Virus record (IMG/VR): IMGVR_UViG_3300020411_004289
Location: 42,088-106,087 of that record
Length of the DNA stretch: 64,000 bases
Source of the DNA: a virus
Reading direction: 5' to 3' (one strand)
The stretch's first letter is position 1; the number at the start of each line of letters is the position of its first letter. Of this stretch, positions 3,907 through 53,876 are shown one piece after another. The position numbers were made by a program, and so were the translations under genes. Under the pieces are notes generated by a model that saw nothing but the letters and a program-made list of their open reading frames with translations, was not told the DNA's origin and ran no database searches.

Positions 3907-5799
3907 ATGGGAAAATATCGATATGCAAGATCTAATGGGCAATTTTTAGATTCTCGGCTTAATAATTTTGCAAAAGAAAATACAATACAAAATTTTAGAT
4001 CTGACCAGTCTTATGACTTATCAAAAGATTTTGTAACAGGTACCAACCCTAGCGAAAACAGTTTCATTCTAGACAAAAAAAACTTAAATGGGTATGAATC
4101 AAAAGCAAGCCTGTTAGCTTGGTGGAGGCCAGGAAACAAAGATGACGACACATCAGCAGTCAAGGATAGCTCAGGGAATAATGCTATTCTCACCCCGCCT
4201 GCAGTATCAAAAACACCTACGCTTGATGTAGGGGACACACCTTCTAAGTTCATCTCTAATAATTCATTTCTTTTTGATGGGTCTGATGATTGTATTGCTT
4301 CTTCTGCATCAAGTCGCCTAGTCTTAAGCGACGGAACCAAGGATGAACCTTTTAGCGTTTCGATGTGGTTAAAAGCTAGTTCTTTCGGCTCAGGTCTCGG
4401 AGTCCCCATAGGATCGTGTGATGCTGATAACACTTCCAATAGACAGTGGCTTATTCAAGTCAACTCCTCCGGAAACTTGAAAGTGGTACTCTATGACAAC
4501 TCCGCCGGAGCTTATGTGTGGAAAACGACAAATTCAGGTGTCTTAAACATTGACACATGGGAACACGTCGTACTTACATATGATGGTCGCTCCGGTACAT
4601 CTGCGACAAACGGTGTAAAAGTATATGTGAATTTAGAGGAGTCCACGTATTACGCTCCCAGCGCAATTGGAACTTATTCTGCGATGGATGGAATAAGTCA
4701 AGCAAAAATAACAGTAGGTGCTCATATCCCGTCTTCTACATGGTGCTTTGCAGGCAGCATAGCAGATGTCGCCATATGGAACAAAGTGCTATCATCTAAT
4801 GAGATAGAAAACATCCATAATGTAAAGAGTGCCGGCGCTTATAGATTGGTAAGAGACTTTAGCAGAGTGTCTCCTGATAACGATACAAGAATTTTAGGTA
4901 TTGCAACTGAAAGAAAAGGTTTTAATACAACAGGGTTCAAACCTGACATAATGAATCAGTTCGTACAAGGGATTAACGTAAAAAGCTTTGATCAGCTGTT
5001 AAACTACACAGCGACCAGAATCAGACCCAATAGTAGCTTTGTCAAGACACTACGTGGCAAGGATATTTCTAGAACAACTTTTGACGAGACAGTCGCAACT
5101 ACAGCAATCACATCTGGGAGTCATACTTCACATGTTTTCCTGGGAGGCGAGGGAAGGCTGTCAGATAGACTTACGAACGAAAGAGAGTGGAGAGATTTAG
5201 GGCAGACAGCAATTTATGACACCCCGGGTGCATTTGAAGATACACTTGATCTAGATCCAACTGCCATTGTTTCCAGGCAACCAGAAGACTTAATTTTACC
5301 ATATCAGATGGTCGCCCAAACAAGTGCAGAACTCTTGGACGGAACCATAGAGCCATTAACCATCAGAAGTATTATCGATCGATCTTCAATAGAGGGCCCA
5401 TTTTACTCTCATACATTTAGAGCAGATCTAGGAGGCCAGACTGACGCGTTCAGGAGATCTTACGTAATTACTGACGGTGTAAGCATGCATGATATTAGAA
5501 CACCTGAAGGAGCATCTCCTTTTTTAGACTCGGTTGAAAATTTAGGTAAAACTGATATGCCCGGAGCGTTCTCTGACTATAAGTCTGTAATTGATCCTTA
5601 CGTTGATTATGCAAACGATAGAGATAAAGAGTACACAATTAACAGTGTTTCATCTACAATTTCTGCTGTACTAGTTCATAGCTCTTCTTGGAAAGATAGT
5701 GACGATCGAACACATGAAAAAATGGCCGCACACGGATTTCAGTATGACAATAACCCAATTGGAATTGACTCCATTGCATATGGAGGTTTAAAGAAGTAA
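3907..5799 (+). CDS. LamG-domain virion protein
   Basis: This 630-residue protein has one clear LamG/concanavalin-like domain at about residues 70-310. The order of features is typical: LLAWWRPG, DSSGNNA, FDGSDD, FSVSMWLKA, TWEHVVLTYDG, and the closing GSIADVAIWNKVLSSNEIENI. The last element (strand, Trp, helix with S-x-x-E-I) is highly characteristic of this fold. The C-terminal half is not recognised; it is rich in Asp, Ser and Thr. No catalytic residues are apparent, so a carbohydrate-binding or spacer role on the tail is the best guess. The gene begins one base after the preceding stop and ends one base before the next start, so it belongs to a tightly coupled structural operon. Confidence 0.78.
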   Translation: MGKYRYARSNGQFLDSRLNNFAKENTIQNFRSDQSYDLSKDFVTGTNPSENSFILDKKNLNGYESKASLLAWWRPGNKDDDTSAVKDSSGNNAILTPPAVSKTPTLDVGDTPSKFISNNSFLFDGSDDCIASSASSRLVLSDGTKDEPFSVSMWLKASSFGSGLGVPIGSCDADNTSNRQWLIQVNSSGNLKVVLYDNSAGAYVWKTTNSGVLNIDTWEHVVLTYDGRSGTSATNGVKVYVNLEESTYYAPSAIGTYSAMDGISQAKITVGAHIPSSTWCFAGSIADVAIWNKVLSSNEIENIHNVKSAGAYRLVRDFSRVSPDNDTRILGIATERKGFNTTGFKPDIMNQFVQGINVKSFDQLLNYTATRIRPNSSFVKTLRGKDISRTTFDETVATTAITSGSHTSHVFLGGEGRLSDRLTNEREWRDLGQTAIYDTPGAFEDTLDLDPTAIVSRQPEDLILPYQMVAQTSAELLDGTIEPLTIRSIIDRSSIEGPFYSHTFRADLGGQTDAFRRSYVITDGVSMHDIRTPEGASPFLDSVENLGKTDMPGAFSDYKSVIDPYVDYANDRDKEYTINSVSSTISAVLVHSSSWKDSDDRTHEKMAAHGFQYDNNPIGIDSIAYGGLKK

Positions 5800-5800
5800 C

Positions 5801-8800
5801 ATGCCGAGACTAGGAAAAAAGATCAAAGTATACGATTTAAACCTTCAGGCTCAGCGTAGTCCGATAGGTGTTTCTGCTATTCCTGGAATAACATTTCCAG
5901 CAACAACCATGAAGTGTGGTGTTGACTCTGACCTAAAATCCAATGTTATAGTTTTCTCTTTAGGCTCAAGCTCTCCTGCTTCTCCTGATCGTTGGATTCA
6001 GCTAGACGGTCCTTTCTTAGGTCCGGTAACACTGACATATACAGCAGTGAGAGGCGATTATCCTGGAAAAATAGCTGTAGACGGAGTCCCCGAGGATCTT
6101 GCAGCCCCTGAACAAGTCGGCGACGACGTTCTTTTAGTTCAAACTTCGAGAGACGGAATTTACTGGAAAACTGTGAGGACAGGAACGGTTGCCGAGTTAA
6201 GCAATGAAGTATACACGACTATTTCTGTTAATGTTTATGGAGATTCTGGATATAAAATAAGAATAGCTCAGAAAAATCAATTCAATGCTTCAGAGGATGA
6301 ATATGCCATTTCGGTGATAACAGTTTCACAAGGAGAGATTTCAGGCTATCTAAATAACCCGCCGCGAATTTTACTACAAGATAACGACAATAGAACTGGA
6401 AGCTATCCAACAGTAGCCCGCACAGGAGATCCCAACTTTACAGGCAGAGCAAATGTGAGGTTTAATGATCAACAAACAGTAGAATACTTTAGCTCATATC
6501 CAGAAGCTGAAATTACTTTTCTTGATATTCCCCTAGATGCTCATTCTATCTCTTTGACAGGTTCAGCAGAAGATCCATCAGAGAACGTAAAAAAGCTTTT
6601 TGAGTTTCAAAAAGGCGTACTTCAATATTATAACGAATCCATCCTCGTAGACATTAAAGGAAAACAAACACCACGATCAGTGGCATATGCTTTTGCTAAG
6701 ACAGTCAACAGCGCTTCTATGGGCATAAAGGCAACCCCAGTTGGAGAAAAAGTAAAACTAAGACAACACAGGCCTTTAATTCCAAGCAACGGGCTAAACA
6801 TAACAACATCCAGCTATCCTGCTTTCTTCCTCCCTGCTTCAATAAAACAATTTACACAGCACGGCCCGGAAAATTATGCGTACCCTATGATTTTACCTGT
6901 GCCCGGAAGAAATGACTATGCCAGTGGATCGACTCATGTAAATGCACTAGTCGCTTCACCTAATATCACTGGATCTTTAACTGCCCCGGCGATTATGGGC
7001 ACATCAAATAGCGGCCCGGGAATACATTTTACCCCGGGAGAAAACATAGGACCGTTTGATGAGTCCAGGATTTACATCGACAATGACCTAAGTTTCTATA
7101 CTGAAGGGACCACAGTCAATGGCACAACTTTGCCAGGATTTGGTGAAAGACTAGGTTCTAAGGTAAGTCTATCTTTTGACATATCAACTAATGAACCCTG
7201 TTCTGTGTATTTTTCAACTGGAACAGTTTCACCTGGAGGTACACATGCATCAAGGGCAGATGCTCTAGCCGCAGGGGTTAATTCCGGGATAGCGTATTAT
7301 AATTTTGCGGAAAGCAAGTGGGAAATTGTAGGAGATCTACTTACCGGCAGTAATGTAGATATTTTTAATTCAAATCCACAGACAGTTGCAGATTCAATGC
7401 TAGCGATAATGCCCTCTCAGTATGACTATTGGTCCTATCATACAGCACCCTTGACTAATATGCTTAAGCATCAAGGGTCACCCACTGAGTTCGCAGGATT
7501 CCCTCTAGCCAGCAAGTTTGACCCTTCAGAAGCTCAGCTACTTGATATGTCAGACTATATTACAGCTCCATTCTTATTAGAAAAATTAGAGCTGACAGTT
7601 TCTGCATCTTATGCTATGACACAGGTGATGACGGACATAAATGGTGTCCATAATGCTTCGTTTATGCTACTTTTACAAAGAGATGCAGTGCCTTCTGGTT
7701 CGTTTACTTCTGAGCTAACATTGCTAAAAAATAACGGGTCAAACACTCTGACAGATATGACGTGGCTCGCGCCTAAGAAAAAAACATTTGAGACTCATAA
7801 AGATAGAAAAATTATCTGGTATGGTAGAATAGGAAGATACCTCGAATTCGATCACCCAACCCAGACTTATAGCTCTTTAGAAGAATTTAGAATTAGGGCC
7901 CCACATGTTTTTGCAGCATGCGATTTGTGGATACCACAGCTTAATCCTTACGGCAATAATCAGTATCCTTCCACTGGTTCTTTCACACTAAGAGGTTCTC
8001 CTAATACACCTATCGGATGTGGTGTGTCAAATAATGTGGTGCGACCTAGAGGTACGCGTACCTCCGCGCACGCGGATATTCCGGAGTATGCAGTCATAGG
8101 AAGAAAGACAGGAGGAAGAGATCTTATAAATATTGCAGACGGACGTTCTTTTATAAGCTCTATTGCAGGCGCTAAAGAGGTCGGCACACATTATGTAGGC
8201 TATGAAGCTAATTCTGCCGGCAGCAGATTTGTACCACTCTATGAAAAGGATTCATCTGAATCTCCTTTTCTTTTGCTCCCAACAGACAAGTTAATGCTTG
8301 TGCATGTCAATCAAAAAATGCCTAATCCCAACGACGACGTACTTACCTGGTCGAAAGGCGAAGACCAAGTAGTTCAGAAAAGATCAACACTTCTCCCGGG
8401 CAAATCTAAACTAACTCTTTTTGGCTCAATGGTGCGTGAAGGAAAAGCAGCAAATACGACCACACTAAATCAGCCACTCACGTCTGACGCAATACACGAG
8501 GATGTTAGAGATGATATATCGCCCTTAGGTGAGTCTCTATGCCTAGATCAGTGGCAAGTAGAGCCTGTGTCTACATATTACAAGTCCTATCTAGACAATA
8601 TTGTCACGGGGTCAATGTATAATCGAAATAACCCTACTCAGTTTATAAACCCACACACACCGCACGTTAGAAAGTCCCAAGGAACCACCGCAGGAACTGG
8701 TATCGTTTCTGGCCGTGTAGGGAGCCTCCTTTCTTCCGGAAGCATACAAAGATTTGTAAGGGCTGTAGACACAGAGCAGATATTTTACGACTCCACAGTT

Positions 8801-34706: not shown

Positions 34707-35531
34707 ATGGCGAAGCATAATAAAAAGCGCAACGTCGGTCTCATTCACGAGCAATTAGTAAGATATGCAAGTGAAAAGATCGTCGAAGGAAAAGAAGAGG
34801 CTGCTGAGCACGCAATAGAAATTTTAAATGAACATTTTAAAGAAGGTACACAGCTTTGCAGAGAATTTCTGTTATTTAACGCACTTGTTCATACAAAAGT
34901 TCAAAGTAGAGATATTGCTAGAAGAATAATTGAAGAGAGTAAACATGCATGCAAAAATCATGATGATGGTTTATTAAGAACAGAAAAGTCTAGACTTATA
35001 AAATCAATCAACCATGATATCGATAATGCAGGTTTTTACGCTAGAAGAATTCCGGAATACAAAGTATTTGCTACTGTTCAAACACTCTTAAATGAGTGGC
35101 GCGGCGATAATCGACTTTCACCGGTTGAAAGAGTAAAATACGAAGATCTCTTAGAAGAGTGGCTTACTAGAGAAAGCAAAGGGAATAACCTAGAGAAAAA
35201 CCCTGATGCAAATCCGTTAACACTTAAAATAATGATGAAAAAGTTCAATAAAAAATATTCTTCATTTAATAGTGAGCAGACACAGCTCTTAGAGTATAAG
35301 CTTTTAGGAAACGATTCTGCAGTAAAGAGTCATGTAGCAAAAATAAAACAAAAAGCACATGAAGCTCTAAATGAATTTTACAGCACATGTGACAATAAAA
35401 TTCTTTTAGAAAAAAGAGAAACAGTTAAAAATAGAATAGACGCTGTGTCTATTGATGCAAATGATAGGTCAATAGCACAAGCTTTGATGCTATCTGCATT
35501 AGTTCACGAAATGGAGGAAGGAAATGAGTAA
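34707..35531 (+). CDS. Probable prohead/head assembly protein of unknown family
   Basis: This 274-residue, strongly helical and charged protein starts with a basic segment (MAKHNKKRNVGLIHEQLVRY) and ends with a helix (SIAQALMLSALVHEMEE). In T4 the small prohead core proteins gp67 and gp68 lie between portal gp20 and protease gp21. This gene has the same position, so a core or assembly role is plausible, but I see no sequence similarity I could assert. The ribosome site AGAGGGG precedes ATG by six bases. It overlaps the protease gene by eight bases in another frame, pointing to coupled translation. No catalytic motif. Confidence 0.65.
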   Translation: MAKHNKKRNVGLIHEQLVRYASEKIVEGKEEAAEHAIEILNEHFKEGTQLCREFLLFNALVHTKVQSRDIARRIIEESKHACKNHDDGLLRTEKSRLIKSINHDIDNAGFYARRIPEYKVFATVQTLLNEWRGDNRLSPVERVKYEDLLEEWLTRESKGNNLEKNPDANPLTLKIMMKKFNKKYSSFNSEQTQLLEYKLLGNDSAVKSHVAKIKQKAHEALNEFYSTCDNKILLEKRETVKNRIDAVSIDANDRSIAQALMLSALVHEMEEGNE

Positions 35532-36135
35532 ACGCACATTGTTAACTGAGTGGTTAGCATTTGATTATTCTCCTGAGCTTATTAAAGAGTCACGTGAGAA
35601 CAATAATGGTAAAGTTATAATGAAGGGGATTCTTCAAAAAGCTGATACACTAAATCAAAACGGAAGAATCTATCCAGAGCCAATTTTGTCTCGTGAAGTA
35701 AGAAATTATCAAAAGTTTATTCAAGAAAACAGAGCTTTAGGCGAGTGCGATCACCCAGATAGCTCAGTTGTTGAATTAAAAAACGCATCTCACATTGTAA
35801 GAGAAGCGTATATGGAAGGTGATGTTTGTTATGGCACTGTCGAGTTATTAGACACACCATCAGGCAAGATTCTACAGAGCTTAGTTGAGTCTGGAGTAAC
35901 ACTGGGTATATCATCTAGAGGTGTAGGTTCTACAACTAGACAAGGCGATCATGATATAGTGCAAGATGATTTTCAACTCATCTGTTGGGACTTCGTTTCT
36001 GAGCCTTCTACTCCTGGTGCTTTTGTTATGAGAGAAGGGAGAGACTTTAGTGATAGCGATCTAAGAAGACATTTCACAAAGTCAGATAGAATTGATAGAA
36101 TAATGAATGACATCATTGATTGGGAGAATGAATAA
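35524..36135 (+). CDS. Prohead maturation protease (T4 gp21-like)
   Basis: This 203-residue serine protease of the gp21 / herpesvirus-assemblin-like fold is almost the same length as T4 gp21 (212 aa). The likely catalytic His is H77 in GECDHPD, and the nucleophile lies in GISSRG (S130 or S131), with the substrate-fold element QNGRIYPEPIL at 45-55. It would degrade the scaffold and trim capsid proteins inside the prohead, typically after Glu in (L/I)-x-E sites. The start overlaps the preceding gene, with GGAGGAAGGAA just upstream. The stop overlaps the next ATG as TAATG. A run of small head genes and the scaffold follow, as expected for the module. Confidence 0.9.
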   Translation: MSKRTLLTEWLAFDYSPELIKESRENNNGKVIMKGILQKADTLNQNGRIYPEPILSREVRNYQKFIQENRALGECDHPDSSVVELKNASHIVREAYMEGDVCYGTVELLDTPSGKILQSLVESGVTLGISSRGVGSTTRQGDHDIVQDDFQLICWDFVSEPSTPGAFVMREGRDFSDSDLRRHFTKSDRIDRIMNDIIDWENE

Positions 36136-39014: not shown

Positions 39015-40616
39015 ATGGTGGGTGGAATGAGTAAAACACTTTATGAAGAAGCCATTGCTGATGCTAAGCAACTTAGGGAGCTAGCAGAAGATTCTGCAAA
39101 AAATCGAGTTATTGAGGCAGTCATGCCTCAAATTAGAGACTTGGTCAATAGAAGAATCTTAGGCGAGCAAATCGAAGATGGAGCTGCAGCTCTAGGTCTA
39201 GAAGACGAAACAGAATTAAACAGCACTGAAGAAGATCTACCAGGAATCGACGCCGGCGACGAATCTTCTTCTAGTGGGTCAGTTATTAATGTAACAGCCC
39301 AGGGCGATGTCAATATCGAGGTCGAATCGGAAGAGCCAGAAGGCGATGAAGAAGACGTCGTTTTGACAGATACAATGGCCGAAGCGTTAGGTCGACTAAT
39401 TCGAGGAGACGTAGTCGTTGAAAATTCAATTGAGGAAAAGCTAGCTCTATTAGAATCTAGAGTTACCAAACTTAAGATGATTAACGACTATGTTTTTGAG
39501 GGTGATTTATCGACCTCGCAAAAGTCTAGATTAAACCTTTCTTTCATTCATTGTTTAAGAGAGGCATTAAATTTACGTGGTAAAGTAATACTTAACGAAC
39601 ATGACACTCAAGATAAGCTTGAGCGGAGACTATCAGCAATAATCAAGGAGATGAAACAGATGTCAAAGTCAAACCGTCGTAATATCTTCGATTTCCTTTT
39701 CGAGGAAGAGGATAAGGAGAAAATGAGCGAGCTCGAGGAGGCTGAACTCTCGCTTGAGCTTGAGGATGAAGAGCTTGATTCGCTCGCAGGTGCCGAAGAT
39801 GTAGATGCAGTAGATGCAGCATTAGCGGACATCCTCGGAGACGTCGAGGTAGCCCTCGGCGATGGAGGCGGCGAAGAAGCCGCTGAAGAGGAAGAAGGCG
39901 AAGAGCTCGAAATGGGAGCAGAAGAAGAAGAATTGGCCGCAGATGAAGAAGCAGGCGAAGATGAGGTTCTCGAAATTGATGAGGGAATGCTTCGCCGAGA
40001 GATTCACCGCATGCGTCGACTTCGTGAGCAAGAGGAAGGACGAGCTGCAGAAGCAGATCCTTATCTAGCACATGACGGAGAAGAAGTAGGCGATGTGGTT
40101 CTGGACGTCGATGAGGACGATCTGATTAACGCACTGGCAGATGAGCTAGGCGATTCAGAGCATACACCTCCCGCGCCAGGCGCTTCCGGAACAGTTGCAG
40201 AGATGCGTAGACGTAGAGCGCGCCGCTCAAGATCACAACGTGTTAATGAGACACGTCAAGTAAAGCAGTATCGTACTGCAGTTGCTGGTCTTAAGAAGCA
40301 GCTTGTTGAGATGAATCTCTTCAATGCAAAACTTCTTTATGCTAACAAGCTAATGCAAAACAAGAATTTAACAACTAAGCAGCAGAGAGCAATTGTTGAG
40401 GCCCTTGATAATGCCAAGACGCTCCGCGAGGCGAAGTTGCTTTACAAGAGCTTGTCGGAGTCCCTCACCCGACGCGCTCGTGGTAAGAAGCTAAATGAGG
40501 GATCTTTACGGACGCTCGGATCGTCTTCCAGATCAACCCGGTCAGGTCAGCCTGCCAAGAATGGTGTTGAGGCGGATCGATGGGCAGTCCTCGCCGGCAT
40601 TAACGGCAATGACTAA
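39015..40616 (+). CDS. Prohead core scaffolding protein (T4 gp22-like), long form
   Basis: This 533-residue, very acidic protein lies directly upstream of the major capsid gene, the position of T4 gp22. Residues 1-50 form a charged helix (MSKTLYEEAIADAKQLRELA); ~140-215 is a second helical unit; ~220-340 is extremely Glu/Asp-rich (long runs of E); and ~410-490 contains the element YRTAVAGLKKQLVEMNLFNA with KLLYANKLMQ and EAKLLYKSLSESL, typical of gp22-type scaffolds. It is about twice the length of T4 gp22 (269 aa). Codon usage changes at about base 39660: upstream uses AGA/AAA-type codons, downstream prefers CGT/CGC, CTC, GAG, ATC, as in the capsid gene. ATG 39015 or ATG 39027 may be the start. 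See the internal-start entry. Confidence 0.8.
   Translation: MVGGMSKTLYEEAIADAKQLRELAEDSAKNRVIEAVMPQIRDLVNRRILGEQIEDGAAALGLEDETELNSTEEDLPGIDAGDESSSSGSVINVTAQGDVNIEVESEEPEGDEEDVVLTDTMAEALGRLIRGDVVVENSIEEKLALLESRVTKLKMINDYVFEGDLSTSQKSRLNLSFIHCLREALNLRGKVILNEHDTQDKLERRLSAIIKEMKQMSKSNRRNIFDFLFEEEDKEKMSELEEAELSLELEDEELDSLAGAEDVDAVDAALADILGDVEVALGDGGGEEAAEEEEGEELEMGAEEEELAADEEAGEDEVLEIDEGMLRREIHRMRRLREQEEGRAAEADPYLAHDGEEVGDVVLDVDEDDLINALADELGDSEHTPPAPGASGTVAEMRRRRARRSRSQRVNETRQVKQYRTAVAGLKKQLVEMNLFNAKLLYANKLMQNKNLTTKQQRAIVEALDNAKTLREAKLLYKSLSESLTRRARGKKLNEGSLRTLGSSSRSTRSGQPAKNGVEADRWAVLAGINGND
39645..39650 (+). promoter_or_regulatory. Internal ribosome binding site within the scaffold gene
   Basis: AAGGAG is followed, with nine bases between, by the in-frame ATG at 39660. 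It matches the AAGGAG used eight bases before the major capsid gene at 40645. Codon usage of the reading frame shifts at this point, which supports real use as a start. A second AAGGAG at 39714-39719 lies three bases before another in-frame ATG at 39723, a less favourable spacing. Confidence 0.5.
39660..40616 (+). CDS. Predicted short-form scaffold from an internal start
   Basis: Translation from ATG 39660 (residue 216 of the long form) would give a 318-residue acidic protein starting MSKSNRRNIFDFLFEEED, close in size to T4 gp22 (269 aa) and containing the whole acidic tract and the gp22-like helical C-terminus. Support: AAGGAG nine bases upstream, and a marked switch in codon choice from this ATG on, matching the highly expressed capsid gene that follows. 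Known precedents include lambda Nu3, the scaffold made from an internal start within gene C. The long form may then be a minor component. This is inference from sequence; protein evidence is needed to confirm that both forms exist. Confidence 0.5.
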   Translation: MSKSNRRNIFDFLFEEEDKEKMSELEEAELSLELEDEELDSLAGAEDVDAVDAALADILGDVEVALGDGGGEEAAEEEEGEELEMGAEEEELAADEEAGEDEVLEIDEGMLRREIHRMRRLREQEEGRAAEADPYLAHDGEEVGDVVLDVDEDDLINALADELGDSEHTPPAPGASGTVAEMRRRRARRSRSQRVNETRQVKQYRTAVAGLKKQLVEMNLFNAKLLYANKLMQNKNLTTKQQRAIVEALDNAKTLREAKLLYKSLSESLTRRARGKKLNEGSLRTLGSSSRSTRSGQPAKNGVEADRWAVLAGINGND

Positions 40617-40644
40617 CCATCTTTTAACCTAAGGAGAAATTAAA

Positions 40645-42549
40645 ATGTCTAAGTCATTTTCATTGAACCAGCTGACCGAAGGTATTCGCCAGAGAAATCT
40701 GGGAGGCCAGAACAAGCAGTTGGTAGAGAAGTGGTCCCGAACAGGACTTCTTCGTGGTTTGAACGGTGTTCACCGTGAGAACATGGCACGTCTCCTGGAA
40801 AACCAGGCAGGCCAGGTTCTTAAGGAGGCATCTTCAGTTTCAACCGGTGGCGGAAACCTGGCATCGTCAGGCGACCTTCGCGGTTTTACTAATATTGCTT
40901 TCCCAATCGTTCGCCGAGTTTTCGGTGGATTGATTGCAAACGAGCTTGTATCGATCCAGCCGATGAGCCTTCCTTCCGGACTGCTCTTCTACTTGGATTA
41001 CACATACGGATCACAGGTGGGTGGAGTAAATGATTCACGTCCATACACCACCGGATCATCAATTTATAATGCACCTACTGGTAAGGGTGTACGCTCTGGT
41101 TCACTAGCAGTTGGCGGTCAGTATGACCTAGCTGGTACGGGCTATACACGTGTACACGACTCAGTTGCATTCACTGCAACCTCACAGCTACTTCTTTCTG
41201 GTGCGGTTCGTGGAACGAACAACGCAATGACAGCCGGTTCGGTCGCTGAAGCAACAGGATCTGATGGTAAACTTCTACAGTTCGACCCACAGATTGCAGG
41301 CGCGATTGAAGGGAATACAACCCCGGGTGGCAACGCCGGCCCTGGAGTTTACTCTTTTGTTGTTATCGAGACTGACTCTCTTACTAACATCGACAAGACG
41401 ATGATTAAGGAAGTTGCTCTTGTTCCAGACGTAGCAGGAACTCTTCCTTCTGGATTGGCCGTTATCGGAGACGATACCAATGGAAACAAGATCCAGGATG
41501 GAGACAACCTTCTTAACGTGCGACGCCTTAACAGACTAGGTACTGTTTCAGGTAACTCATGGACGTCAGCTCCGCTTGCAGACATCAGCGATGCCAATAC
41601 AGGAATTCTGATGGTTGTTTCAGGTGCAATCGAAGGCTCGACTGCTGAAGTAGCGAAATTAACAGTTTCGTTCCCAGTAGAGGCTAGCCTCAACAGTGGA
41701 ACTGGAGATACTCTTGTAATTCCGGCTTTCGAATCGGATTTTGCAACGTCACCATCGCCGAATATTCCAGAAATCGACATCAAGATCGAGGCCATTGCGG
41801 TCGTAGCCAATACTCGTAAGCTACGTGCCAAGTGGTCACCAGAACTCGCTCAGGATCTTAACGCTTATCACAGCTTGGACGCTGAGGTGGAGCTCACACA
41901 GATCCTCTCCGAGCAGATTGCTCTAGAGATTGACCGCGAGATTCTTAACGATCTTCTCATGCAGGGTAACGCTGCTAACTACTTCTGGTCACGTGCACCT
42001 GGTAAGTTCGTCAACAAGGAGACGGGATCTGAGGTTCTAGCTTCGGGTACCAACGCTCCTGGACCTGCTTTCCGTGGAACAGTTCGTGAGTGGTATGAGA
42101 CTCTTGTTGAGACTTGCATCGATGTGGGTAACCAGATCCATCGCAAGACGCTGAGAGGATCAGCTAACTTCGTCGTGGTAGGACCTGACGTTGCTACGAT
42201 TCTTGAAGCTTCAGTCTTCTACAAGCCTTCCTACACTCTCGATGGTGATGGACAGGTTGGCGCTCCGATGGTTATCGGTGCCGAGAAGGTTGGAACTCTC
42301 AGCAACCGCTTTACGGTTTACAAGGATCCTTACTTCCCAAGAAATAAGGTTCTTGTTGGCTACAAGGGCGGAAGCTACCTTGAGACAGGATACGTCTACG
42401 CACCTTACGTGCCGCTGATCGTAACACCTACTATCTTCGCTCCTGAGGACTTCACCCCGAGAAAGGGTGTCATGACTCGCTACGGAAAGAAGATGGTTCG
42501 TTCCGACTTCTACGGTACAGTTACATGCTTGGACATGAACGTCATCTAA
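40645..42549 (+). CDS. Major capsid protein (T4 gp23-like)
   Basis: This 634-residue HK97-fold shell protein is related to T4 gp23 (521 aa). N-terminal marks are VEKWSRTGLLRGL and the FTNIAFPIVRRVF segment; the C-terminal domain shows LRAKWSPELAQDLNAYHSLD, then AEVELTQILSEQIALEIDREIL. The extra length lies mostly in a Thr/Gly/Ser-rich beta region around residues 150-380, possibly an inserted surface domain. Residues 59-62 read L-K-E-A, fitting the (L/I)-x-E cleavage rule of the gp21-like protease, so the mature shell protein may start at A62. AAGGAG eight bases before ATG is a strong site. Codon choice (CGT/CGC Arg, AAG Lys, GAG Glu) differs from most neighbours and suits very high expression. 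A strong terminator follows. Confidence 0.93.
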   Translation: MSKSFSLNQLTEGIRQRNLGGQNKQLVEKWSRTGLLRGLNGVHRENMARLLENQAGQVLKEASSVSTGGGNLASSGDLRGFTNIAFPIVRRVFGGLIANELVSIQPMSLPSGLLFYLDYTYGSQVGGVNDSRPYTTGSSIYNAPTGKGVRSGSLAVGGQYDLAGTGYTRVHDSVAFTATSQLLLSGAVRGTNNAMTAGSVAEATGSDGKLLQFDPQIAGAIEGNTTPGGNAGPGVYSFVVIETDSLTNIDKTMIKEVALVPDVAGTLPSGLAVIGDDTNGNKIQDGDNLLNVRRLNRLGTVSGNSWTSAPLADISDANTGILMVVSGAIEGSTAEVAKLTVSFPVEASLNSGTGDTLVIPAFESDFATSPSPNIPEIDIKIEAIAVVANTRKLRAKWSPELAQDLNAYHSLDAEVELTQILSEQIALEIDREILNDLLMQGNAANYFWSRAPGKFVNKETGSEVLASGTNAPGPAFRGTVREWYETLVETCIDVGNQIHRKTLRGSANFVVVGPDVATILEASVFYKPSYTLDGDGQVGAPMVIGAEKVGTLSNRFTVYKDPYFPRNKVLVGYKGGSYLETGYVYAPYVPLIVTPTIFAPEDFTPRKGVMTRYGKKMVRSDFYGTVTCLDMNVI

Positions 42550-42580: not shown

Positions 42581-42613
42581 AAGGCGCCTTGGATTTTCCA
42601 AGGCGCCTTTTTT
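42581..42613 (+). terminator. Rho-independent terminator after the major capsid gene
   Basis: A perfect 13-base inverted repeat (AAGGCGCCTTGGA / TCCAAGGCGCCTT) with a three-base TTT loop ends in a run of six T, 32 bases after the capsid stop. It should end the very abundant capsid transcript. The 163 bases that follow it before the next gene hold no clear promoter, RNA or ORF that I can support. Confidence 0.92.
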
Positions 42614-53387: not shown

Positions 53388-53876
53388 ATGGCAGAAACAC
53401 TTCCAGTCACAGATATGCTACCCAATAAGTTTGAACCCAAACGAAAATTTAGATGGGTATTTGCAATTGAAGGGATTGATGCTTTTTTGATGAAGACGGC
53501 GGCCCGGCCTAACGTCACAATTGAGGAGACAGAAGTATCCTTCATTAACTCTACGCGTTACCTTGCCGGTAAGTCAAAATTCGAGGCAATTACTGTCACG
53601 CTACATGATCCAATTGCACCTTCGGGAGCACAGCAGGTAATGGAGTGGTGCAGAACACACTTTGAATCAGTTTCAGGTCGTGCAGGATATGCCGACTTCT
53701 ACAAGAGAGACTGCCAGCTCAAGCTTCTTGATCCAGTTGGAACAGTAGTTGAGCTTTGGGATATCAAAGGAGCGTTCCTCACTAACGCCACATTTGGTGA
53801 TCTAGACTACGGCGGCTCTGACCCAGCAGAAATTTCTCTGACAATCAGATTTGATAATTGCGTACTGCAATACTAA
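53388..53876 (+). CDS. Tail tube protein (T4 gp19-like)
   Basis: This 162-residue protein is essentially the length of T4 gp19 (163 aa). Recognisable features: FEPKRKFRWVFAIEGIDAFL, ARPNVTIEETEVSFINSTRY, ITVTLHDPIAPSGAQQVMEW, and the DFYKRDCQLKLLDPVG strand pair followed by WDIKGAFLTNATFGDLDYGG. It polymerises into the inner tube around the tape measure. AAGGAG lies 11 bases before ATG. Codon choice leans to the highly expressed set (CGT, CTC, AAG) like the capsid gene. A strong terminator lies 69 bases downstream, so the sheath-tube transcript probably ends here. Confidence 0.93.
   Translation: MAETLPVTDMLPNKFEPKRKFRWVFAIEGIDAFLMKTAARPNVTIEETEVSFINSTRYLAGKSKFEAITVTLHDPIAPSGAQQVMEWCRTHFESVSGRAGYADFYKRDCQLKLLDPVGTVVELWDIKGAFLTNATFGDLDYGGSDPAEISLTIRFDNCVLQY

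Follow-up and report, generated by a model that had tools for sequence, protein, structure and literature searches.

A scaffold gene of a T4-related phage, found in a 64,000-nucleotide stretch of viral DNA (the window; positions 42,088 to 106,087 of IMG/VR record IMGVR_UViG_3300020411_004289), is best explained as a single gene that yields two co-terminal forms of the prohead core scaffold from two ribosome sites, a reading that the sequence makes highly probable. The same arrangement is kept in a large group of T4-related phages, and two products very probably arise from the gene. The evidence for the internal start and for its conservation is strong; that this start is used, and that the short form is made in excess, we infer from the strength of the internal Shine-Dalgarno (SD) sequence and from codon usage, which both point that way. 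SD conservation and codon usage are two different analyses in agreement, and both bear on translation, not on assembly function.

The scaffold gene lies between the gp21-type protease and gp23-type capsid genes (Table 1), directly upstream of the latter and separated from the former by six small genes. Its open reading frame (ORF), 39015-40616, stops 28 bases ahead of the capsid gene; for the long form, it is ATG 39027 (MSKTLYEE) and not ATG 39015 that is conserved as the start. An AlphaFold model of the scaffold (overall pTM 0.29) contains an N-terminal helix, a beta hairpin, a helical middle region and a confident helical C-terminal domain, linked by disordered acidic stretches. PHROG and Pfam searches gave no match to a protease family in the long form, and no homology of the scaffold to PHROGs, Pfam or PDB sequences was found. 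Searched by structure, the full model had no informative match in the PDB; BFVD likewise returned nothing informative, the two phage proteins below E 0.001 having a TM of about 0.15-0.2. The preliminary description had called the scaffold gp22-type, which holds for position and general make-up: like T4 gp22, it sits between the protease and gp23 genes and is acidic and helical; it has LxE sites and would be a candidate substrate of an LxE protease. Homology to gp22 is undetectable (hhalign probability 0.1-0.4% against seven gp22 proteins; T4 gp22 itself matches phrog_237 at 1.6e-92), and the internal SD-ATG is absent from seven T4 or cyanophage gp22 genes.

Table 1. Features of the scaffold gene and of neighbouring head genes (window coordinates)
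Feature	Position	Strand	Remarks
Prohead protease, gp21-like, separate gene	35524..36135	+	phrog_207 E 1.2e-49
Long scaffold ORF	39027..40616	+	529 aa from conserved ATG 39027; 533 aa from ATG 39015
N-terminal helix	39030..39158	+	long form only; helix 2-44 of AlphaFold model
Beta hairpin and helical middle region	39282..39704	+	up to 39659 long form only; AlphaFold model
Internal Shine-Dalgarno AAGGAG	39645..39650	+	codons AAG GAG = K211 E212
Short scaffold ORF, putative abundant form	39660..40616	+	318 aa
Basic N-terminal peptide MSKSNRRNIFDFLFE of short form	39660..39704	+	ends in prohead-protease-type LxE; predicted cleavage
Acidic core	39705..40214	+	common to both forms
Conserved helical C-terminal domain	40224..40484	+	common to both forms; pLDDT about 90
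Capsid-gene ribosome site AAGGAG	40631..40636	+	hexamer identical to internal site
Major capsid protein, gp23 type	40645..42549	+	PF07068 Gp23 E 4e-74; phrog_138 E 5.6e-69

The internal ribosome site is where the preliminary description had placed it: AAGGAG (39645-39650) precedes ATG 39660 by a spacer of nine bases (39651-39659), and this ATG is in frame with 39015 (offset 645, or 215 codons), so that the short product of 318 residues ends at the common stop, 40616. Across the 41 ORFs and 17,776 codons of the window, the in-frame pattern AAGGAG/AGGAGG N4-10 ATG occurs once, in the scaffold gene. The same type of site precedes only three of the 41 ORF starts: 37792, the capsid gene at 40645, and 53388. 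The gene at 53388-53876 has codon usage near that of the capsid gene, and probably encodes another abundant structural protein. Anti-SD duplex energies in this phage are -10.6 kcal/mol for the internal site, -9.1 for the capsid gene and -8.5 for the long start, which is not weak in every phage; in relatives, the internal duplex is usually stronger than that of the long start and similar to that of the capsid gene. ATG 39660 is a better start than ATG 39651, because the latter is less conserved (23/28 relatives) and touches the SD. The remaining ATGs inside the gene, namely 39651, 39723 and some present in individual relatives, were rejected as starts, being unconserved or badly spaced. Around the internal start, RNA folding gave no signal (z 0.04).

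Conservation of the site was followed in two sets of relatives. A first IMG/VR search gave 61 loci, with 28 distinct alignable members whose identity goes down to about a third; since the alignment was built on protein, the conservation of AAG GAG ATG in these relatives was not selected at the DNA level. At K211, all 23 lysines are encoded by AAG (background 51%), and the remaining codons are CAG or AGG; at E212, GAG is found in 27 of the 28 (background 43%) and GGG in the last. An ATG follows in 28/28, at a spacing of 9 nt or, in three, 6 nt. The internal AAGGAG-ATG is thus present as (A/C)AG GAG or a close variant plus ATG in every aligned relative. Synonymous sites are near random over about codons 29-183, and conservation is up at codons 183-223. 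Diverged members (e.g., L040, L042, L044, L126 and L131) keep AAGGAG and ATG amid unrelated flanks, with a very different downstream peptide. A profile search with the C-terminal domain extended the set to at least 600 stretches, of which at least 578 were confirmed, with at least 16 loci in genome assemblies. Among the matches listed, 114 ORFs were complete and distinct, and for 87 of these the capsid gene of the locus is preceded by an SD. A strong internal site between the N-terminal helix and the C-terminal domain occurs in 74 of these 87 complete SD-using relatives among the matches listed, compared with a mean of 31 and a maximum of 41 in synonymous shuffles of the 87, the relatives being metagenomic and not independent of one another and the permutation tests ignoring phylogeny. 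In other ORFs of at least 300 residues from the same loci, such a site was found in 3/141. Among the exceptions, weaker versions (AGGGAG, AAGGGG, AAGGA or CGGAG) stand at the homologous place in L020, L022, L047, L118, L144 and L147, and L121 has a GTG start. Since shuffling yields a chance site in about one-third of such KE-rich genes, single cases are weak, and it is the conserved position that carries the weight. In the complete relatives examined, one continuous frame spans the N-terminal helix and the C-terminal domain, which indicates that the long form is maintained as well.

SD-like sequences within genes have been proposed to slow ribosomes, and the site sits at a domain junction in the model. 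The conserved AAGGAG could then be a pause site in a gene that makes only the long protein, giving the N-terminal part time to fold ahead of translation of the acidic core. We regard this as very improbable: a pause has no need of an ATG at 6-9 nt, yet the ATG is kept along with the SD, and pausing leaves unexplained both the downstream rise in capsid-like codons and the new, basic N-terminus with its LxE motif, two features described below.

Codon usage changes along the gene in step with an internal start. Scored as within-amino-acid log-odds of capsid-gene versus background usage, codons 1-215 average -0.40 bits and codons 216-533 +0.14. The best change point falls after codon 209 (nt 39642), six codons ahead of ATG 39660, with a z of 5.58 and none of 2000 permutations as strong. 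The profile across 39015-40616 is not smooth and steps just before 39660. A switch to capsid-like codons at the internal ATG, as proposed in the preliminary description, is real as a step, but the downstream part is not uniform: the glutamate-rich acidic core (about codons 260-320) reverts to GAA. The downstream part is more capsid-like in 67/68 relatives with the site and in 12/20 without it (Mann-Whitney p 2e-9). In some relatives (L003, L009, L010 and L028), over 100 codons separate the ATG from a change point downstream of it, and in L018-L020 and L041 the change point is weak.

A separate transcript would also account for the codon step, and the short product might come mainly from a promoter inside the long gene, with the SD serving that transcript. 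This would refine the two-form reading rather than negate it. Synonymous conservation is indeed also raised upstream of the SD, over about codons 183-214, including a recurring ATA CTT at 39588. On the other hand, a search limited to sigma-70-like promoters, from which phage-specific ones may differ, found none on the plus strand; ATACTTA is not enriched before other genes (three occurrences in the window) and is missing from the L017-L022 group, which retains the internal start. On balance, an internal promoter as the main source of the short form seems unlikely. The ATA CTT codons themselves, at 39588-39593 and some 70 nt ahead of the internal ATG, are found again in many relatives, with ATA ATT in others, and are a possible regulatory element.

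In a tree of 94 capsid proteins, all 72 sequences with the internal site fall within one 75-member clade (support 99), and 19 outgroup sequences, including Flavobacterium phage immuto, Microcystis phage Mel-JY01 and LR756508, were scored as lacking it; the SD-ATG matches that do occur in immuto and LR756508 are chance-like and sit at non-homologous places. For many outgroup members, the absence of an internal SD is uninformative because they use no SD at all, but L064, L149, L157, L167 and L168 have an SD before the capsid gene, yet none internally. Outgroup scaffolds without the internal start carry the same N-terminal helix and C-terminal domain, which makes the long form ancestral and the short form the innovation. 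The 215-residue N-terminal part, presented in the preliminary description as something that the long form adds, is on this evidence not the addition; the short form is. In a phage collection of deposited genomes, only outgroup records matched the clade scaffolds, and no clade member was found there. One of the outgroup genes, at 5092-6333 in locus L063 (immuto, MW353176.1), is annotated as a ‘DNA polymerase phi-like protein’ and is the homologous head scaffold, directly upstream of the immuto capsid gene.

These outgroup scaffolds, with N-terminal helix and C-terminal domain in one gene, also speak against a history in which two once-separate scaffold genes were fused in frame, leaving the inner ribosome site as a relic. 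The middle region and the C-terminal domain have a similar helix order in the model, a point in favour of a fusion, but comparison of their profiles gave P 0.0098, against 0.0091 for a control pair. Nor would a relic keep AAG GAG ATG where the synonymous sites of the N-terminal part are otherwise near random, and two separate genes at the scaffold position were found in none of the 114 complete loci among the matches listed. We consider such a fusion extremely improbable. The idea that the middle region is a duplicated C-terminal domain was dropped, as the profile score did not exceed that of the control pair. The preliminary description proposed a gene within a gene, in which an internal SD start leads to strong expression of a 3′ product; this is supported by the codon-level conservation of SD and ATG, by the codon step recurring in relatives and by the absence of both from the outgroup.

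Initiation at 39660 would give the short form an N-terminus of its own. Its mean net charge is +1.9 over ten residues, compared with -2.0 for the region, and LxE or IxE occurs within residues 5-20 of the internal Met in 72/79 relatives, compared with 38% of random 16-mers. T4 gp21 cleaves after L/I-x-E (PMC9026906), and the N-terminal targeting peptides of T4 core proteins are removed by the prohead protease (PMC9026906, PMC9958956). The predicted peptide resembles the capsid-targeting sequence of T4 internal proteins in being a short N-terminal peptide of the kind that, in T4, the prohead protease removes; it differs in belonging to the scaffold and in being created by an internal start, and its targeting role is putative. 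The N-terminus of the protease, MSKRTLLTE, also has an LxE, and the capsid protein starts in like style (MSKSFSLNQLTE). More broadly, the head-region proteins starting at 34707, 35524, 36535, 39027, 39660 and 40645 have short, often basic N-terminal peptides, with an L/I-x-E after them inside the first 20 residues, a pattern suggesting that these proteins have a propeptide code in common that the prohead protease would recognise.

Nested scaffold genes are known from other viruses. In lambda C/Nu3, an in-frame internal start produces the short scaffold, according to a passage in PMC8508860 that cites Shaw and Murialdo 1980; Mu has a nested scaffold start, and in PaMx73 the start is preceded by an SD (PMC4378225). 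The likeness to lambda and Mu lies in a short scaffold from an in-frame internal start, a C-terminal part common with a longer protein, and a place in the head gene cluster. The parallel with C/Nu3 drawn in the preliminary description thus extends to the internal start with its ribosome site, but not to the protease: the N-terminal part of the long form is a protease in lambda and Mu, whereas here it is the ancestral scaffold helix and middle domain, the shell protein is of gp23 type and the protease is encoded by a separate gp21-like gene. In herpesviruses, UL26.5 has its own promoter within UL26, and its abundant short scaffold is 3′ co-terminal with a scarcer long form (PMC2949831). The two forms considered here are likewise 3′ co-terminal, but they would depend on a bacterial-type internal ribosome site in place of a promoter, and the long form has no protease domain. 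T4 itself has a head gene with an in-frame internal start, gene 21 (the start is annotated in NC_000866), whose short product, gp21s, is reported to be essential (PMC9026906); unlike the present gene, it encodes a protease, not a scaffold. Searches of the open-access literature turned up no two-start scaffold described for gp23-type phages. In the nested scaffold genes known previously (lambda, Mu and herpesviruses), the long form is the protease; the occurrence of the device in gp23-type phages with a separate protease indicates that it is independent of protease fusion, and it seems to have arisen at least once more.

The proposed scheme is as follows. Ribosomes entering at 39027 would make the long form, with N-terminal helix, beta hairpin, helical middle, acidic core and C-terminal domain; those entering at the internal AAGGAG and ATG 39660 would make, in larger amount, the short form, with its basic LxE peptide, acidic core and C-terminal domain. 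Both would co-assemble through the common acidic core and C-terminal domain. By analogy with lambda and herpesviruses, most of the core may consist of the short form, with the long form as a minority species that would use its N-terminal part to nucleate the core or tie it to the portal, protease or shell. The N-terminal peptide of the short form would serve as a propeptide of the T4 capsid-targeting kind; during maturation, the separate protease would cleave after LFE (residue 230), at the boundary between the two forms. For the division of labour and the propeptide role, we put the chances at about even. The wider proposition is equally balanced between true and false: a large clade of the T4 superfamily would have independently evolved a protease-free nested scaffold, in which an internal ribosome site turns one ancestral gene into a nucleating long form and an abundant short one. 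The short form would bear a cleavable head-targeting peptide only through the second start, and the make-up of the head core would be set by the ratio between the two ribosome sites. The two-form reading predicts a second scaffold protein, missed by annotation, in a large phage group known only from metagenomes, and it opens a simple route to the role of the N-terminal scaffold domain. It also illustrates that conserved internal ribosome sites can be detected from metagenomes by combining codon-level conservation with a step in codon usage.

Two further signals lie nearby. At the 3′ end of the scaffold gene, synonymous sites in two blocks, 40503-40544 (CGGACGCTCGGATCGTCTTCCAGATCAACCCGG) and 40566-40595 (GATCGATGGGCAGTCCTCGCCGG), hardly vary among relatives and are conserved far more than elsewhere in the gene; no RNA structure signal (z -0.77), Rfam family or second copy was found for them. 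Just past the capsid gene, at 42581-42609, a hairpin resembling an intrinsic terminator (AAGGCGCCTTGGATTTTCCAAGGCGCCTT) is followed by a T-run.
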